Origin: a virus
Virus record (IMG/VR): IMGVR_UViG_3300025085_000023
Location: 1-58,367 of that record
Strand: one strand, 5' to 3'
DNA: 58,367 bases
In this document: positions 29,252-37,608 of the stretch, one piece after another
How the letters are laid out: every line of letters begins with the position of its first letter
Position numbering within the stretch: position 1 is the first letter of the stretch
Translations under genes and position numbers: made by a program
The notes under the pieces: model-generated
The model's input: only the letters and a program-made list of their open reading frames with translations
The model's database searches: none
Told to the model about the DNA's origin: nothing

Positions 29252-30649
29252 TTATTTAACGTTCGAGTCGTATTCTTTCATACCATAGGTATCACGGATT
29301 AAATTCACCATGGTGGTAAACTCAGGTTCGCCGCTTTCTTTTACTAGTTGATAGTTATGTGACAATTGAGCAATAAGATATGTACCACTATTTTCTTCAT
29401 CATATTGACTAGAGTTTCTAAGAGCTTCTGCTGATACGTTAGGAAGCATAACTTTAACCTTATCTCCCACTTTAAGATCTGAATTTCCAGGGATCATGAT
29501 CTCTAACTTCTGATTCTCCATCAAGTAACGTCTACCAATTGCCTGTGCAGTATAATATTTGGCAAAATCAGGAAACTCAGCATCACCATCTTCTTCTGGG
29601 TTTGCAATACCTGCTCCGTCATACCACATCTCAGAATCTAATAGAATTGTCATGACTCTACTAGGTTTAGAACTCAATTCTTTTTGGAATTTAGGTACAT
29701 CAATTTGACTACCCAAATGAGACATGGTATCAAATGTTTCTTTCATATTATAATTATACTCTTCATATTTTTGAGCAGCAAGATCAAAGTAGCACATGTG
29801 AGTTGAATATATTCCATTGTTCATTTTATCCATGATATCAATTTCATCTATAAACTTATAAAATTCAATAGTGTTAAACGAAGACTCCGTAATAGAATCT
29901 ACTGCTGGTCGCGAGTAATACTCTGCTATTGGTGGTTTACCACCAAAAGTATCAGTACCATCAGAACATAACCTATCCATAGATTCAAATACAAAACCAT
30001 CTTTATTCTGGAAGAATAGATATCCTGCTGTACCAGATGATTTAGTTGCATTAGTTCCAAGTTCTCCGCTGGGTTTCGCGTCACTTACTCCACCACCTTT
30101 CCTGAACTTAGCAGATTTAGGAACACAACGTGCCATCAATGATTGTATAACTGCATGTGGTTTCCTTCCATTGGGAAACATGTTTATTTTAAACTTAGAT
30201 GTCTCTGTAATAATATTATCTGCCTTTACACCAAGATCTTCAGTTAAAATTTTCCTAACAATTTGATCAGGTAAATCTTTTTGTTTCTGTAAGCATCGTG
30301 TTTTCTCATTAATCATTGCTTCTTTCGATAGCATTGCAAGGCAGTAAGTTTGTTTGTTACTCATTACCTGTCTATTGTATACCTTATAAACACAAAACTC
30401 ATAAGTTACTAGTTGTTTTTTTACATTTTCTAACTTAAAGGTGACAATTTCTCCACCTTGAATAGGCAAAGTACCAATAAAGTTTTGACCACTATCCATC
30501 ACTACCATACTAGCAGAGATGAATGGTTTGTAGATATCTTCATAATATGAAAACGCTCCTACTGCAGAAGTAAGATCAAAGGATACACCATCAACCGAAG
30601 TAATAAAAACCGAGTGTGGTGTAAAAAATTTAGAAGAATTAGTTGCCAT
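29252..30649 (-). CDS. Baseplate hub protein, gp27-like
   Basis: 465 aa. The N-terminal beta domain (SVFITSVDGVSFDLTSAVG, FISASMVVMDSGQNFIG) and the later part (IPGNSDLKVGDKVKVMLP, GTYLIAQLSHNY) fit the hub/gpD-gp44 barrel group to which T4 gp27 belongs. It lies directly upstream of the OB-fold protein, as 27 neighbours hub genes in related phages. The start overlaps the M23 gene stop (TAATG). Assignment is by fold pattern and position. Confidence 0.6.
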   Translation of the reverse strand: MATNSSKFFTPHSVFITSVDGVSFDLTSAVGAFSYYEDIYKPFISASMVVMDSGQNFIGTLPIQGGEIVTFKLENVKKQLVTYEFCVYKVYNRQVMSNKQTYCLAMLSKEAMINEKTRCLQKQKDLPDQIVRKILTEDLGVKADNIITETSKFKINMFPNGRKPHAVIQSLMARCVPKSAKFRKGGGVSDAKPSGELGTNATKSSGTAGYLFFQNKDGFVFESMDRLCSDGTDTFGGKPPIAEYYSRPAVDSITESSFNTIEFYKFIDEIDIMDKMNNGIYSTHMCYFDLAAQKYEEYNYNMKETFDTMSHLGSQIDVPKFQKELSSKPSRVMTILLDSEMWYDGAGIANPEEDGDAEFPDFAKYYTAQAIGRRYLMENQKLEIMIPGNSDLKVGDKVKVMLPNVSAEALRNSSQYDEENSGTYLIAQLSHNYQLVKESGEPEFTTMVNLIRDTYGMKEYDSNVK

Positions 30650-32805
30650 TAGAAAGCGGGGCCCATGTATGGATTGTTTGCATCCTCAGTAGGATACGCT
30701 GGTGTTACTGCTGTTGTACTAATTGGTTTAGCACTATTACGAGGTTTAGGTAATCTTGAAGTGTCTGGTGCGGTGACGGCAGGAAGAATGATAGGGTCTC
30801 CACTAGCAGTTGTATCATCTGCTGGTGTTACTGGGGCAGCTGCTGGATCAGCAGCAACTGGTGGTGCTGCGGGAGCACCTTGATCAATAGTTCCACCTAC
30901 AGTAAAGTACGATGAAGCAACTCTAGATCCGTCAACAGGACCACCAGTACTAGATGGATAGTATTCAAAGTGTAGGTGTGCGCCATTAGTAGGACCAGCA
31001 CCTGGTGTTCCTGGTTCTCCACCTGTTTTACCAATTACAGTTCCACTGGTAACAAGTTGACCAGGAGTAACTGCAATTTTACTCATGTGTAGATATCTAG
31101 ATCTAGTCCCATCATCATGCTTAACAAATATTGCACCCAGATTACCCATTGCAGGTACAGTAGTTTCAATAACTTTTCCTGGTTTCTTCAGTGCGATTGC
31201 TGTACCCTGAGGAACACCATAGTCAACACCCTGATGATTTCTAGAAGCACCTGGTATACCAGTATTGCGAGGACCAAAAGGAGATGTGATTCTATATCCA
31301 TCGACAGATCCACCATTAGATATCATTCCAGGTGCCATGAATCCAGTAGCTCCACCGCCAGTAGTTGAACTTGCAGAACTATTTTGTGTTGATGATTTAC
31401 CTTTACCACCTCCACCTTTGGTATCAGTGGTCTTTGCGTTAGCAGGTCCACCAAAGAATGCAGAAACTAATGATCCAGGAATACCAAATGCTGCTGCAGC
31501 AGGTTCAAATAATTTCTGAACTACTGGACGGAAAATTTTTCCGATACCACCCATGTGGTTGATTACATTACTCGCAGTGCCCATCATGATAGCACCTGCT
31601 GCCATCGTAGGCAGTTGTAATGCTTTAGCAAATGGAGATGATTTTTTTACATTTTCAGGATCAGTTTTGACAGCACTCTCTAATTTATTTTTAGGAATGA
31701 TTGCTTGATCACTAGCACCACCAACTGCAGTTGGATTATCAAGGACTCCACCTGATGCAAGTTTTTCTGGTGGTTTTTCTGGGTTTTTAGCTAGTACTCC
31801 ACCCGATGCCAATCCTTTTCTTCCAGGAAGCACCCTAGATCGCATACGAGGAGAGAATCCACCCATTCCAGCGCCACCACGGGCTCTTGCCCATGGTTGA
31901 GAAGATCCTCTGCCTAAAGGTCCAATAGGATTGCTGTATTGTCTACCCTTAGACATACGGGGCATTCTATTTCTACCACCCCTTCTACCTCTTCTTTTTG
32001 AGAGTAATCCTAGACCAAAATCTAATGCTGTACCAAAAAGACCCTTTTTCTTTTTACCTTTCTTTCTACGATTATCAATGGCATTTGTGCCAGCAGAATC
32101 TGATGTACCTTCTCCTCGATTTTCAATAGCAGAAGATTCTGCTGCATCTTTTGCTTTAATTTGTTCAGCAAGAGTCTCTTCTGCTACCTTAGTTTGTTGC
32201 TCTTCAATTTGATTGTTTTTAGTAAAGAATGTACCAACACCCTTTATATTTTCTGCTAGTTTTACAACTACAGATGGAGTTTTATCCTCGTCTTCCTTCT
32301 TTCTTAACTGATCTACCTTTGCACTAAGAATGGCAAATTTTTCTGCTATATCTGCAGATAGTTTACCTACAACACCTTGTTCTTGATATCCAGCAGAAGA
32401 AAGATCAAGTTCACCCTGCTTAACTCCTTCTACTTTAGCAGGTTGTGCTGCTACTAGAGCATCAAATCTTTTTTGTTTGTCTAGTGCTGGATCATTTTGT
32501 TCTTCGGGATTTGTTTGGAAGAACCCCATGGTTCTTCTTTTAAAATCTCCACCAAACTCAGTGCCCAGTGCCTTCTTCATGAAGAAAGCGTTACCTTGTT
32601 CTTCTTTTTGAGCTTTTAATTCTTGATAACGTTCTTCTTCTTCGTCAGTTCTATTATCACCTAATTCTTCTAACTCTTGTAATTCATCGTTCTGTCTTTT
32701 CCTAGCTCCTGCTGCCAATTGAATGGCACTACCAAGTTTCTCGCCCATTGCGCCAGCGAGACTACCATATTCTGGTTTCTTATAACTTTCCGTCCCTGCG
32801 CCCAT
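30649..32805 (-). CDS. Tail protein with C-terminal M23 peptidase domain
   Basis: 718 aa. N-terminal: SLAGAMGEKLGSAIQLAAGA and FGGDFKRRTMGFF, also found in the neighbouring 870-aa protein. Middle: basic, disordered, with two ASGGVL motifs. Residues ~500-625: M23 endopeptidase domain (SPFGPRN, HQGVDYG with His~520 and Asp~524, YLHMSKIAVTPGQ, AHLHFEYYP with the distal His pair ~608-610), which would bind zinc and cut peptidoglycan cross-links during infection. The C-terminal tail is Pro/Ala-rich. Intergenic repeat B ends at the start codon. Confidence 0.88.
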   Translation of the reverse strand: MGAGTESYKKPEYGSLAGAMGEKLGSAIQLAAGARKRQNDELQELEELGDNRTDEEEERYQELKAQKEEQGNAFFMKKALGTEFGGDFKRRTMGFFQTNPEEQNDPALDKQKRFDALVAAQPAKVEGVKQGELDLSSAGYQEQGVVGKLSADIAEKFAILSAKVDQLRKKEDEDKTPSVVVKLAENIKGVGTFFTKNNQIEEQQTKVAEETLAEQIKAKDAAESSAIENRGEGTSDSAGTNAIDNRRKKGKKKKGLFGTALDFGLGLLSKRRGRRGGRNRMPRMSKGRQYSNPIGPLGRGSSQPWARARGGAGMGGFSPRMRSRVLPGRKGLASGGVLAKNPEKPPEKLASGGVLDNPTAVGGASDQAIIPKNKLESAVKTDPENVKKSSPFAKALQLPTMAAGAIMMGTASNVINHMGGIGKIFRPVVQKLFEPAAAAFGIPGSLVSAFFGGPANAKTTDTKGGGGKGKSSTQNSSASSTTGGGATGFMAPGMISNGGSVDGYRITSPFGPRNTGIPGASRNHQGVDYGVPQGTAIALKKPGKVIETTVPAMGNLGAIFVKHDDGTRSRYLHMSKIAVTPGQLVTSGTVIGKTGGEPGTPGAGPTNGAHLHFEYYPSSTGGPVDGSRVASSYFTVGGTIDQGAPAAPPVAADPAAAPVTPADDTTASGDPIILPAVTAPDTSRLPKPRNSAKPISTTAVTPAYPTEDANNPYMGPAF

Positions 32806-32887: not shown

Positions 32888-32895
32888 TATTTATC
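32888..32895 (-). promoter_or_regulatory. Late promoter for the M23 tail gene
   Basis: GATAAATA on the minus strand at the end of the upstream gene, 83 nt before the ATG at 32805. It fits the xATAAATA late motif. Confidence 0.55.
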
Positions 32896-35506
32896 AACTT
32901 CTTTGCAACCTAGCACGCTTTAGTTTTTCAAGTGTAGTTCTGTTTCCAGTTTTATCATAGAAGAAGTTACTAGTACTTTCGGAATCAAGGTATGTATTTT
33001 TTTGAAACCCAACAGGTTGTGACTGACCTTGAATAATAATTGGTTGGAAGGTCACCCTACCACCTCCTCGTTCTTTCATACCTTGCAAGTTTTTTGGCAA
33101 TGGTATTACTTGAACTGGTGCGGGAGGTTCTAAAGTTTCGGATGAATCTGGTGGTGATGTTTCTGGTGCGGGTCTTGCGTCTGAAGGTCCAGGATTATTA
33201 GCATCATGTCCCCCGTTATCTTCTGCATCTTCTTCTGGTGTATCCGTTCTCGGAGGAGGAGGTGGGTTCATGGGATCAGCAGAAGCAGGTGCATTCATTA
33301 CAGACTGAGCAGCACCAACCCTCTTTGACATAGAACTTTGTAATTCTCCTGCTCCTGCTCGCTCTACTTCATATGCAAATCCTCTAGTCTTATCTGCAAT
33401 TGTTGGACCATATGCCATTGCTTTCTGGAACTGTGCACTTTCATATTGATTGCCACCTTTCAATTCCCATGCAATATAATCTAATTGTACTTCTAAATCG
33501 CTAGCAGGTTTGTTTTTCTCTGCTGCAAATGCTAGTAGTTTATCGTAACGACCACCCAACCATTGCATCAAACCATATGCACCTGACGTTGGATTCCGAG
33601 CACCAGTGCTAAAACCAGACTCTGCCCATAGATTACCAACAATAGCAGCTGCTTCTTCTCTAGTAAATCCTCGACGTACTAGACCAGCATGTAAAGTCTG
33701 ACCAGTGGCAGTATCTCCTTCGCCCAATGGGATACCTGTAACAGGAGTAGATGATGGTCCTCCTGCCATAGTTTCTCCTGATGATGCATTTTTATCACCA
33801 TTTCCACCCATGTTTACATCAAACTTTGTACCTACAGATTGAATTGCTTCCAATCCTTTACCAACCATACCCTGAACATTAAATTCTGCTAGACCAAACA
33901 ATCTTGCAAGTGGTCCTATCTCTTGATCTAAGAATGGTTTAACCGCACTGCCACCAACTTGACCAACAATCTTATCAACAATACCAAGAATAAATGGTAT
34001 ACCTGACAGAGCAGAGTTGTCTACATTAGCTACATTTTTTACAACTTTCTTACCACTCTCCGATGACAAATCAAATTTATATTCTGGACCTGCTTCTCCT
34101 GCAAGATATCCACCTGATGCCAATTTTTCTGGTGGTGCTGGTGTTTCTGATGGTGCTTCGATCGCTTCTGCTGATTCTTCTGGTGTTGGTGGTTCCTCTT
34201 TACTTTCTGGTTTTTTAGATGGTTCACCACCCCCACTACCACCAGTAAGTGCATCATAAACAGCACCACCAACCATGTCACCAAGGAAACCACCAAGAAT
34301 GGTTCCAGCAAACGGGACAGGAATTAGTGTGCCTAATGCTCCACCAAGTGTAGCACCAACTGCTTTTGCTGCTGCTCTACCAAGTGGTTCACCTAACATA
34401 AGTGACACCGCAAAGTCAATCAGACCACCAATAAGCGGAATGCGTTTAATAAGTGGTCGCATTAAACCTAGTGCTGCTTTCTTAATAAATGCTTGAGATG
34501 CTTTAACTGCAGCAGTCTTGGCAAGTTTCCTACCACCTAACTTTATTGCTGTTCTTGTGACTGCTCTGCCTGCACCACGTCTTCCGACTCTACCTGCAAC
34601 TCTTTCACCAATGTCTCCAGCAATATCAGACCCTGTAAAGAAATCAAGACCGCGATCCAGTAGACTTGGCTGTTCCTGATCTTCTTCTTTATCTTCTTCT
34701 GGTTCATCAGGTCTTTTGTTGTCTATTGCTTCTGTGTCTGCTGCATCAACAATTTGTTCACTATCATTTTCAATTGCTTCTGCTTGTTTAGTATCTTTTT
34801 CATCTGCTTGAAGACTAATGAATTTCTTTTGAACTTCAATTGCTTTCTTTTTAATCTTCGTGCTTTCTTTTATATGTTTTTCGACATTCTCTGTTGTAGT
34901 TTCTTGAATGTCTAATGAAAGTTCTAGTTGCTCCTGCTTATTATCTTTAGATTTAATTAAGTCATCAAATTTTGTTACCAGATTTGCAAATGCTTTTCCG
35001 ATGCCATTATCATTATCATTTTCAGGTGCAGGTAGTGGTCCCTGCTGCATCTCAAAATCTGGTTGTACTTCTGCAGAAAATCTACCTGACTTACCTAGTG
35101 CTGGGTCTTGAACATCAGTAGGATCTGAAGAGAACGTTCCCTTGGTTCTATTAACTAAGTCTCCACCAAAATTAAAAGCTGCTGCTTTTTTTAGGTAATG
35201 AAATTTATCTTTCTTAATTTTGTTTGGATCAGCAGCACGTGCTTGCGCTGCCATTTTAAAAGATTCGCCAACCTTACCGCCAAGAAATCCTGCTAGACTA
35301 TCACCTTGAGCGGTAGGAGCAACCTTAATTACTTGAAATTTTTTCTTCTTATACTTTACCTTTGATTCACTAGGTAAAGCATCTTCTTCTGGATCATTGT
35401 AAATGGATTCCAACAAAGGATCAAGCATGTTCTCATCAAAACCCTTCTCCATGCGAGAGATGAGTTCACTAAGTTGCTTTTGCTTTTGTGGGTTAACCTC
35501 AGGCAT
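32894..35506 (-). CDS. Large tail protein with lysozyme-like domain, possible tape measure
   Basis: 870 aa from the ATG at 35506, which overlaps the small chaperone-like ORF by 8 nt; a longer frame upstream is a shadow. N-terminal repeat DSLAGFLGGKVGESFKMAAQA plus FGGDLVNRTKGTF is shared with the 718-aa protein. Helical and coiled acidic parts follow, then a hydrophobic Gly/Ala-rich segment (AAKAVGATLGGALGTLIPVP) like those of tape measures, an ASGGYLAGEAGPE motif and, at ~600-715, a lysozyme-like domain (AAAIVGNLWAESGF with catalytic-type Glu~629; GAYGLMQWLGGRYDKLLAF). It follows the gp26/gp51-type pair, as tape measures do. Confidence 0.78.
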   Translation of the reverse strand: MPEVNPQKQKQLSELISRMEKGFDENMLDPLLESIYNDPEEDALPSESKVKYKKKKFQVIKVAPTAQGDSLAGFLGGKVGESFKMAAQARAADPNKIKKDKFHYLKKAAAFNFGGDLVNRTKGTFSSDPTDVQDPALGKSGRFSAEVQPDFEMQQGPLPAPENDNDNGIGKAFANLVTKFDDLIKSKDNKQEQLELSLDIQETTTENVEKHIKESTKIKKKAIEVQKKFISLQADEKDTKQAEAIENDSEQIVDAADTEAIDNKRPDEPEEDKEEDQEQPSLLDRGLDFFTGSDIAGDIGERVAGRVGRRGAGRAVTRTAIKLGGRKLAKTAAVKASQAFIKKAALGLMRPLIKRIPLIGGLIDFAVSLMLGEPLGRAAAKAVGATLGGALGTLIPVPFAGTILGGFLGDMVGGAVYDALTGGSGGGEPSKKPESKEEPPTPEESAEAIEAPSETPAPPEKLASGGYLAGEAGPEYKFDLSSESGKKVVKNVANVDNSALSGIPFILGIVDKIVGQVGGSAVKPFLDQEIGPLARLFGLAEFNVQGMVGKGLEAIQSVGTKFDVNMGGNGDKNASSGETMAGGPSSTPVTGIPLGEGDTATGQTLHAGLVRRGFTREEAAAIVGNLWAESGFSTGARNPTSGAYGLMQWLGGRYDKLLAFAAEKNKPASDLEVQLDYIAWELKGGNQYESAQFQKAMAYGPTIADKTRGFAYEVERAGAGELQSSMSKRVGAAQSVMNAPASADPMNPPPPPRTDTPEEDAEDNGGHDANNPGPSDARPAPETSPPDSSETLEPPAPVQVIPLPKNLQGMKERGGGRVTFQPIIIQGQSQPVGFQKNTYLDSESTSNFFYDKTGNRTTLEKLKRARLQRS

Positions 35507-35675
35507 TTTGTTGTTTTTGCTTTTCTTCTTGTTCTTTGATGTATTGGTTAAGCAAAGACACATATACCGTGCGTTCCCACGGCATCATATGTTCAATTTC
35601 AGTCAAACTGTATTTATGATGCTGCATAAGAGCAAAGTTAGTTCTATAATAATTCTCTAGTGTATTGTAGAACAT
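35499..35675 (-). CDS. gp51-like / tail assembly chaperone C-part, reached by -1 frameshift
   Basis: A 58-codon frame (ATG at 35675) follows the gp26-like gene. It is rich in helix-formers and ends EEKQKQQNA; its core FALMQHHKYSLTEIEHMMPW resembles the second part of tail assembly chaperones. No ribosome site precedes the ATG. Its frame is -1 to gp26, and the slippery heptamer at 35684-35690 sits inside the last gp26 codons. The most likely product is the fused gp26-gp51 protein of about 298 residues. The T4 order 26-51 supports the identity. Confidence 0.68.
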   Translation of the reverse strand: MFYNTLENYYRTNFALMQHHKYSLTEIEHMMPWERTVYVSLLNQYIKEQEEKQKQQNA

Positions 35676-35677
35676 GC

Positions 35678-36394
35678 TTATCCGAAAAAAGATTGCAAAC
35701 CCTCCAACGTATAAGAAGATGTGACCTTAGTATTCGGATTAGTGATCTCAAATCTATGGCGAAGAACAGGCATAGTATTAAAGAATTTTTGAACATGTTC
35801 AAATTGTTTCTGCGTAAGACTCTCGATAAATTGTACCTTTTCTTTTTCAGTGGTTGTGGAGTCATCAAAAACTTCATCACCTTCATAGATTTGATCAATA
35901 CATTTAGCAATGACACCAAAGATCTCATCAGGATCATCAGGATTTTGTCCTAACATAGTATAGTTAACAAACTCATCCATACCAGGATATCTCATAATCA
36001 TACCAACATTATCAGTCAGTTCAATTTTATTACTATGTCCTTCAGGAATTTCTACTTTAACTGTTGAAAGGTCAACCACATAATCTACTTTAGTTTTGTT
36101 ATCATCCAAGCATGTGATTTTCATTGGGACATCTTCACCAACAGATGCTGCACGAATCTTCAAGAAAAGATATTCTAAATCAAATGATGTTAAAGATTCT
36201 AATTTAATTCTAGACAGCACACAAGATTTAGTAATCTGTCTTACTGCATCTTGTACTTCTTTTGGTTCAGTACTTTGTGTTGCGAGTAGTAAAACTTTCT
36301 CCTCTTTAACTAGAAAAGGTCTGTACTTAATTTTCTTTTTGGTGGATGGCAACTCAAGTTCATAAGTTGGAGTAGCAATAGATGGTAATGCCAT
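35678..36394 (-). CDS. Baseplate hub subunit / tape-measure chaperone, gp26-like
   Basis: 238 aa (T4 gp26 is 208). The N-terminus (YELELPSTKKKIKYRPFLVK, EEKVLLLATQS) and the IRAASVGEDV-type centre belong to the T4 gp26 family. T4 gp26 was long called a hub subunit; together with gp51 it is now often considered a tail assembly chaperone pair. Here it is followed, in a -1 frame, by a gp51-like 58-codon ORF, and next by the probable tape-measure gene. The ATG is 6 nt after the stop of the gp19/gp54-fold gene. Confidence 0.8.
   Translation of the reverse strand: MALPSIATPTYELELPSTKKKIKYRPFLVKEEKVLLLATQSTEPKEVQDAVRQITKSCVLSRIKLESLTSFDLEYLFLKIRAASVGEDVPMKITCLDDNKTKVDYVVDLSTVKVEIPEGHSNKIELTDNVGMIMRYPGMDEFVNYTMLGQNPDDPDEIFGVIAKCIDQIYEGDEVFDDSTTTEKEKVQFIESLTQKQFEHVQKFFNTMPVLRHRFEITNPNTKVTSSYTLEGLQSFFG
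35684..35690 (-). promoter_or_regulatory. Programmed -1 frameshift site (T TTT TTC)
   Basis: On the minus strand the last gp26-like codons are TCT TTT TTC GGA TAA. The heptamer T TTT TTC fits X XXY YYZ, with both P- and A-site tRNAs able to re-pair. A -1 slip gives CGG ATA AGC ATG, which enters the downstream frame directly. About 10 nt later GTTCTA and TAGAAC can pair as a weak stem. Confidence 0.6.
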
Positions 36395-36399
36395 AATAA

Positions 36400-37137
36400 T
36401 TAACCTCGATAAGACGAAATATTGTTGTAGGTAATAGAGTGTTTGGAATAATAAAAGTTTGCTGTTACCTTTGTTGCCTGTGATGTACCAGCAGACATTG
36501 GAATAGCATCAATAGAATAAGGAAAACATTGTAACATGGTATACGAAATAGATGCCCTAGAATTAGAGGCATTCTTTCCTTTCTCTGCTTTAGTTATTAT
36601 ACAAGTTGCTTGATATTGTGATGGATAAGATAATCTAACAGATCTATCTGGAGAAATTTTATCAGCAGAAGAACTAGCTTCATTTTTTACTTGTGATAAT
36701 GAATTATTAGTTAGACTATCGATAGGAACAATGTCCTCTTCATCGCCAATATATTCATTGAAGATGGTATTATACCACACGTTCAAGAATTTAAGTGGAG
36801 TCATATCTGCATCACAGATCCACCCCAACGAAAAGTCTGTAAAAATTCTAGTGTGTGGGTAGTTTACTTGACCCTCACCAAGAAATTTGCCAGTGGTCTG
36901 TCCAGTAGAGGCAGACACATTAGGTAGTTGAGCTTCATCGCAAAATAATTTTACAACATCACCTCTATAGTTTGCTAAAGTTCCTCCTTTATCTCCTCCA
37001 GTAGTTTGAATTCCTACTTTTGTTAGATTTGCCGCCAGCAAAGATCCTTCAGGAAAGACCCATTCTATATCATAAGTATTACTATAAGATAGACCACCGC
37101 TTTTAACGATAAGATCCATAAAGTTTTGTACTGACAC
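36400..37137 (-). CDS. Tail-tube-fold baseplate protein, gp54-like
   Basis: 245 aa, starting at GTG (37137). FCDEAQLPNVSASTGQTTGK, PHTRIFTDFSLGWICDADMT and PLKFLNVWYNTIFNEYIG are hallmarks of the tail tube fold shared by T4 gp19, gp48 and gp54. Position next to gp26 and opposite gp48/gp53 suggests the tube initiator gp54; true gp19 is usually near gp18 and gp20. I saw no ribosome site before GTG; an ATG six codons in (37119) is possible. It is driven by the late promoter at 37166-37173. Confidence 0.6.
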   Translation of the reverse strand: MSVQNFMDLIVKSGGLSYSNTYDIEWVFPEGSLLAANLTKVGIQTTGGDKGGTLANYRGDVVKLFCDEAQLPNVSASTGQTTGKFLGEGQVNYPHTRIFTDFSLGWICDADMTPLKFLNVWYNTIFNEYIGDEEDIVPIDSLTNNSLSQVKNEASSSADKISPDRSVRLSYPSQYQATCIITKAEKGKNASNSRASISYTMLQCFPYSIDAIPMSAGTSQATKVTANFYYSKHSITYNNISSYRG

Positions 37138-37165: not shown

Positions 37166-37173
37166 TATTTATG
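37166..37173 (-). promoter_or_regulatory. Late promoter for the hub block, overlapping gp4 start
   Basis: CATAAATA on the minus strand fits the late consensus and overlaps the ATG of gp4 on the other strand. It lies about 30 nt before the GTG at 37137. Confidence 0.6.
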
Positions 37174-37608
37174 GCGTACTCAGGTGTTTATAAACCTGTG
37201 AACCCACAAAAGTATAAAGGCAATCCTACGAGGATAGTCTTTCGTTCCTTGTGGGAGAGAAAATTCATGCACTTTTGTGATCACAATAAAAGCATCGTAC
37301 AATGGGGTAGCGAGGAAGTAATCATTCCTTATCGTTGTCCAACAGACGGACGAGTCCACCGCTACTACCCTGACTTCTACATTAAAGTTGTATCTAAGTC
37401 AGGCATGGTCAGTAAATATCTGATCGAAGTTAAACCAAAAAAACAAACACAAGCACCGAATGAGAAACCGAAACGTAAGACTGCCTCTTGGAGAAGAGAA
37501 GTTCTAACTTACGCTAAGAACCGCGCTAAGTGGTCTGCAGCTGAGGACTTCTGTGAGGACAGGCAGATGAAATTTTTAATCCTCACCGAAGATCACTTAG
37601 GAGTCTAA
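37171..37608 (+). CDS. 4: Head completion protein gp4
   Basis: 145 aa (T4 gp4 is 150). PQKYKGNPTRIVFRSLWERK, FMHFCDHN, WGSEEVIIPYRCPTDGRVHR and YYPDFYI plus YLIEVKPKKQ are diagnostic of gp4. The DF/EVK pattern is that of the PD-(D/E)XK nuclease fold. gp4 completes DNA-filled heads before tail joining. It starts the short plus-strand operon of four genes. Confidence 0.93.
   Translation: MAYSGVYKPVNPQKYKGNPTRIVFRSLWERKFMHFCDHNKSIVQWGSEEVIIPYRCPTDGRVHRYYPDFYIKVVSKSGMVSKYLIEVKPKKQTQAPNEKPKRKTASWRREVLTYAKNRAKWSAAEDFCEDRQMKFLILTEDHLGV

Follow-up and report, generated by a model that had tools for sequence, protein, structure and literature searches.

We analysed the junction between a gp26-like gene and the gp51-like open reading frame (ORF) that follows it in a viral record of IMG/VR (IMGVR_UViG_3300025085_000023), where a programmed -1 ribosomal frameshift very probably joins the two. 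The window, meaning the whole stretch of DNA analysed, is 58,367 nucleotides (nt) long; among named phages, its nearest relatives infect Synechococcus, for instance Sf-CH11 (82%) and S-RIM44 (77%), and all the features of the locus lie on the minus strand.

The predicted slip site at the gp26-like/gp51-like junction

The gp26-like gene (35678-36394) encodes a zero-frame product of 238 amino acids (aa), a predicted short tail assembly chaperone that matches PF12322 (T4_baseplate, E 1.6e-69) and phrog_150 (E 3.9e-76). Its 3' end reads TTG GAG GGT TTG CAA TCT TTT TTC GGA TAA and contains, in the zero frame, the X_XXY_YYZ site T TTT TTC (35684-35690), which starts 10 nt and ends 3 nt ahead of the stop codon TAA (35678-35680; relatives use TAG, TAA or TGA at this place). 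A sequence-only reading of this DNA had proposed the heptamer as a slip site; its frames and coordinates were as claimed, while the distance of 7 nt to the stop had to be corrected to the values above. After a -1 slip, the ribosome would read CGG ATA AGC ATG and enter a 58-codon ORF with its own ATG (35499-35675), the predicted fusion being 298 aa long with the peptide ...LQSFFRISMFYN across the slip site. The whole -1 frame extension (35499-35684) thus comprises R-I-S, the 58 codons and a stop; it is the predicted C-terminal domain of a long form and is annotated as "gp51" in relatives. It matches phrog_634 (E 2.6e-28) and, within the gp26 profile phrog_150, positions 240-281 (E 2.9e-6).

The heptamer sequence in itself is not rare in the window, with 20 copies observed against 17.6 expected. 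Nevertheless, just one of the 20, the gp26 copy, is in phase with an ORF of at least 100 aa, stands beside its stop and opens a -1 frame, here of 63 codons. We then scanned for relatives with peptide patterns taken from the interior of gp26 and none from its end, obtaining 80 loci with 48-100% identity. Results showed that NNT TTT TTC NNN and a stop occupy the same position, with the -1 frame open, in 80/80 of these loci. Together with a second scan and the reference genomes, the set grew to 182 sequences. All but five of them have an open -1 frame of 54-67 codons; of these five, four reach the contig end and one is a natural fusion. In the latter (L154:2001-2891, on a viral contig of 236 kb), what looks like a deletion of 2 nt at the heptamer, either a true variant or a sequencing error, puts gp26 and gp51 into the same frame; the idea that it could be a second copy as in T4 was dropped when a search of the contig returned one copy only.

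We aligned by codons 144 distinct gp26 alleles of cyanomyovirus type. The more distant phages were excluded, as were L154 with its in-frame fusion and L149, where TGA comes straight after the heptamer (TTT TTC TGA) while the -1 frame stays open. Codons 236 and 237 are TTT TTC in all 144 alleles. In the nine other conserved Phe columns, TTT and TTC are always mixed, the minor codon reaching at least 8% of alleles. Fitch counts on the tree, whose total length is 27 substitutions per site, gave 0 and 0 third-base changes at codons 236 and 237, against a mean of 19.5 and a minimum of 7 in 30 other two-fold columns. The codon preceding the two Phe (Ser, Asn, Ala or Asp) has undergone at least 23 amino-acid changes, with 30 changes in its first two bases and 0 in the third. 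Judging from these counts, the unit under selection is the nucleotide heptamer, beyond the protein alone, because the third bases are frozen despite the amino-acid changes in the preceding codon. The sequence-only reading had named the loss of the heptamer with both ORFs kept as the result that would speak against it; 144/144 alleles keep the heptamer, which also occurs in sampled relatives infecting other hosts, and the sampled exception is a group of Ackermannviridae-type phages that retain the shorter motif T_TTY. The alignment therefore supports a programmed frameshift.

The start codon of the putative separate gp51 is less constant. Among 150 distinct junctions, 39 have no ATG, GTG or TTG within the first six -1 codons, and the gp51 annotated in S-RIM2 is a 45-aa protein from an internal start, i.e., a truncated one. 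The best Shine-Dalgarno (SD) match upstream of ATG 35675 in the window is CGGATAAG, at -3.3 kcal/mol compared with -6.6 for the gp26 start, so that the earlier description of an ORF lacking a ribosome site was roughly right: the site is weak.

Elements around the slip site

An element overlooked by the sequence-only reading, which had noticed the heptamer and a downstream stem, lies upstream of the slip site. GAGGG ends 9 nt ahead of the first T of the heptamer in 116/144 alleles, and the window carries GGAGGG at 35700-35705, a predicted stimulator of slippage. The 8-mers at this site pair with the anti-SD sequence at a mean of -7.4 kcal/mol, the strongest value in the last 300 nt of gp26, where the background mean is +0.1 with a standard deviation of positions of 1.6. 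Codon usage follows the same pattern, as Glu 231 is encoded by GAG in 86% of alleles compared with 32% for Glu overall. Ser at position 231 characterizes a small clade (L025, L027-L032). In E. coli, GAGG located 6-17 nt upstream of a slip motif is a proven stimulator (PMC4066793), and the GGAGGG of the window, with its spacer of 9 nt, falls within this range. Considering the usual SD spacing, the same GGAGGG would be too distant from ATG 35675 to serve the initiation of gp51.

Downstream, the GTTCTA/TAGAAC stem pointed out previously is present in the window as part of a longer stem of 10 base pairs that contains one C.A mismatch, its 5' arm (35664-35673) beginning 10 nt past the heptamer and its 3' arm lying at 35641-35650. 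The window fold alone is not significant (z +0.43 for 91 nt and z -1.9 for 44 nt). The 91-nt result had led us to regard the stem as a chance feature, a view that was reversed for two clades by folding all alleles. In the two largest clades, the 44 nt from the stop gave mean z values of -4.3 and -3.9 against dinucleotide shuffles; with synonymous recoding of the -1 frame as the control, the values were -4.2 and -2.5. The stem in the window's clade, GTTCTATAAT/ATTATAGAAC, has ten pairs with 94% of cells paired, and a compensatory change from C-G to U-A is found in three sequences. The claim of a stem therefore held for the two large clades of relatives and fell short of significance for the window copy taken alone. 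A consensus fold of all 117 distinct downstream sequences gave no shared structure because the hairpins of the two clades sit in different registers, and an Rfam search returned nothing above the gathering score.

Gene neighbourhood, T4 and phages of other hosts

The gene upstream (36400-37137) encodes a tail tube protein (PF23849, Phage_TTP_2, E 1.9e-50). The gene downstream (32894-35506) encodes a candidate tape measure or tail lysozyme protein (PF18013, Phage_lysozyme2, E 6.5e-26) whose probable start, ATG 35506, overlaps the gp51 stop. This protein also matches the tape measure family phrog_9570 (E 9.5e-21), with the match confined to the lysozyme region, and we consider it as the presumptive tape measure protein. 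The window therefore has the order tail tube, 26, 51 and tape measure candidate, and S-PM2 and Cr30 are similar. Next to the tape measure candidate, a 718-aa protein with an M23 domain (Peptidase_M23, E 1.6e-17; 30649-32805, minus strand) makes two consecutive genes for cell-wall enzymes. Farther away, a minus-strand ORF of 4356 aa spans position ~17749. On the plus strand (37171-37608), a 145-aa protein matches the N-terminal domain of TnsA-like endonucleases (PF08722, E 9.6e-22) and occupies the slot of the gene that relatives annotate as gp4, head completion or head closure.

We also looked at the gp26 end in phages outside the cyanophages. TTTTTTC, TTTTTTT, TTTTTTG or TTTTTTA is found at the same position in Caulobacter phage Cr30, Pseudomonas phage pf16, the Vibrio phages ValKK3, K566 and EniLVp02, Stenotrophomonas phage Ps15, Xanthomonas phage X1, Aeromonas phage AS-yj, the Rhizobium phages RHph_I34 and LG08, and Pseudoalteromonas phage XG4. 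Where tested, the -1 frame of these relatives encodes a domain of phrog_634 type, the match being weak for Ps15; searching viral_contigs with the proteins of Cr30 and ValKK3 gave only two loci each. In Vi01 and PWKp5, which are of Ackermannviridae type, no start codon stands at the head of the -1 ORF.

T4 presents a different arrangement of the same two domains. T4 gp51 has a full-length match to PF12322 (residues 1-201) and, in the same frame, a match to phrog_634 (147-246); as judged by these matches, it is the in-frame version of the predicted frameshift product, and T4 gp26 is the short form alone. In eight phages with a separate in-frame long gene (T4, PG7, Klebsiella Jiaodavirus, MX01, fHyAci03, kvi, Rgz1 and AhMtk13a), gp26 is without the heptamer in 8/8 cases. 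GLKEFF is often retained in their gp26 with altered codons, T4 having GAG TTC TTT. By this comparison of genomes, the slip site is kept where it is needed and lost where a long gene exists. In addition, according to PMC3004832, T4 gp51 is essential for tail assembly yet is not found in the particle, and both gp26 and gp51 count as chaperones of hub assembly; a protein that is needed but absent from the particle fits a chaperone role. The proposal that the pair corresponds to tail chaperones with T4 equivalents is thus supported by the order of the genes and by the in-frame 26+51 architecture of T4 gp51, although T4 itself does not use frameshifting here. The link itself is already published, as PMC10885494 cites Vladimirov et al. 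2022 for T4-like phages in which a short chaperone gene occurs beside a long, fused one, and PMC12846349 cites it for poly-T slip signals in T4-like phages.

Probable frameshifting, its rivals and its significance

Taken together, we estimate at roughly 92% the probability that the gp26-like gene ends in a programmed -1 frameshift signal through which a long tail assembly chaperone is made. The majority of ribosomes would terminate at TAA and release the 238-aa short protein. Others would pause as the internal GGAGGG pairs with the 3' end of 16S rRNA, helped in many relatives also by the downstream hairpin, and with TTT in the P site and TTC in the A site both tRNA-Phe would re-pair one base back, to TTT TTT. 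We infer that such slippage occurs with an efficiency low enough to leave the short form as the major product, the slipped ribosomes producing the 298-aa protein with the gp51-like domain. The short and long chaperones, as in the lambda G/GT type, would then coat the tape measure protein during polymerisation of the tail tube.

Several observations weigh against this interpretation or parts of it. Six sampled phages of Ackermannviridae type (L094, L192, L193, L087, L088 and L098) are without the heptamer. Their gp26 ends retain a T_TTY tetramer at the same codon position, possibly allowing a slip in the A site only; in E. coli, U_UU.[U,C] belong to the tetramers with the strongest tendency to shift (PMC4066793). 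Seven alleles with Ser instead of Glu at position 231 have no good SD and keep the heptamer. The hairpin of the window is imperfect and not significant in the synonymous recoding control (z -0.25), and folding of the alleles did not reveal a hairpin in two smaller clades; as these two clades lack it and the heptamer is universal in the set, the hairpin looks like a lineage-specific addition to the signal. We also modelled the natural fusion L154 with AlphaFold (mean predicted local distance difference test score 88, mostly confident, low at the junction). Among the 50 Foldseek matches listed, the HK97 tail assembly chaperone (gp13, 2ob9) had the highest probability, 0.51, with a TMt of 0.50 and an E value of 1.9, which is not significant; a sequence search of the PDB found no relative. 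Finally, an ATG lies 2 nt past the gp26 stop or overlaps it in many alleles, including the window, and therefore a separate gp51 made by re-initiation is also conceivable.

According to this last explanation, gp51 would be a separate small protein produced by termination-reinitiation or from its own start past the gp26 stop, and the T-run would be incidental. The position of the ATG, the TAATG overlaps in Vibrio phages and the weak GGA ahead of ATG 35675 are in its favour. However, it leaves the frozen heptamer unexplained, the SD-like site is too far upstream of the ATG, 39/150 junctions offer no start codon, the ATG of the largest clade is buried in a hairpin of about -18 kcal/mol, and in T4 the C-domain is encoded only as a fusion to a gp26-type domain; we therefore regard it as unlikely. 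Slippage could instead be transcriptional, RNA polymerase slipping on the six T's so that part of the mRNA carries an extra base and encodes the fusion. The protein products would be identical, the run is homopolymeric, and Cr30 and pf16 even have seven T's. Six T's are nonetheless short for transcriptional slippage, the final C of the heptamer is frozen too, and the SD-like element and the hairpin stand at distances typical of ribosomal signals, making this explanation very improbable. Even less credible is a heptamer without function, left by a conserved protein sequence (GLxSFF) and codon bias. It is true that T4 gp26, despite having no slip site, still conserves the two Phe residues, but the phages with a fused long gene often keep Phe-Phe and change its codons (8/8 without the heptamer), and codon bias leaves the other Phe codons unfrozen.

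Frameshifted chaperone genes are a known kind, represented by lambda G/GT and by the T4-like phages of Vladimirov et al. 2022 as cited above. Phage Adele (PMC12846349), with the chaperone locus of Vandenendeviridae/Andersonviridae, is similar in that its short chaperone gene has a T-run close to the 3' end where the -1 shift takes place, and in an open -1 frame whose "hypothetical" ORF is the C-domain; it differs by its GTTTTT motif and by belonging to other phage families, and the excerpt of that source reports no SD element. With T4 gp26/gp51 the locus shares the two domains, the N-domain of PF12322 and the C-domain of phrog_634. In T4, however, the long form is a separate in-frame gene and the heptamer is lost, whereas the window has no in-frame fusion, the C-domain is in the -1 frame and both products would come from one gene. 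Lambda G/GT and related tail assembly chaperone genes were reportedly treated by Xu, Hendrix and Duda in 2004. As in lambda, two overlapping ORFs lie between the tail tube gene and the (candidate) tape measure gene, and a -1 slip shortly before the first one stops would give access to the second; here, the protein family is PF12322 and the slip site is T TTT TTC with an upstream SD-like element. The heptamer and the internal SD about 10 nt upstream also recall E. coli dnaX and IS911, as may the downstream hairpin, which is strong in two clades but weak in the window and absent from two other clades; the run is of T and not of A, and the SD is absent in one small clade.

We lean toward a wider scenario in which the T TTT TTC signal, with the SD-like GAGGG and in some clades the hairpin, would be ancestral for making the long chaperone across the wider T4-like superfamily. 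The T4 subgroup would have replaced it by gene duplication and in-frame fusion (gp51) followed by decay of the slip site, and Ackermannviridae would have reduced it to the A-site tetramer T_TTY at the same codon. If the frameshift signal is ancestral, the cyanophage "gene 51" would therefore be a domain rather than a gene.

Cyanophage genomes annotate gp26 and gp51 as two baseplate hub genes. Our analysis suggests that what is listed as the second gene extends the gp26-like gene; if so, the two would form a single chaperone gene expressed by recoding, and hundreds of genomes would need to be re-annotated. Moreover, gp26 and gp51, two T4 hub proteins that are poorly understood, would be tied to the lambda G/GT paradigm, and these phages would offer a natural experiment: most lineages would produce the protein pair by frameshifting, T4 would rely on a duplicated gene instead, and the slip site would have disappeared where it became superfluous.

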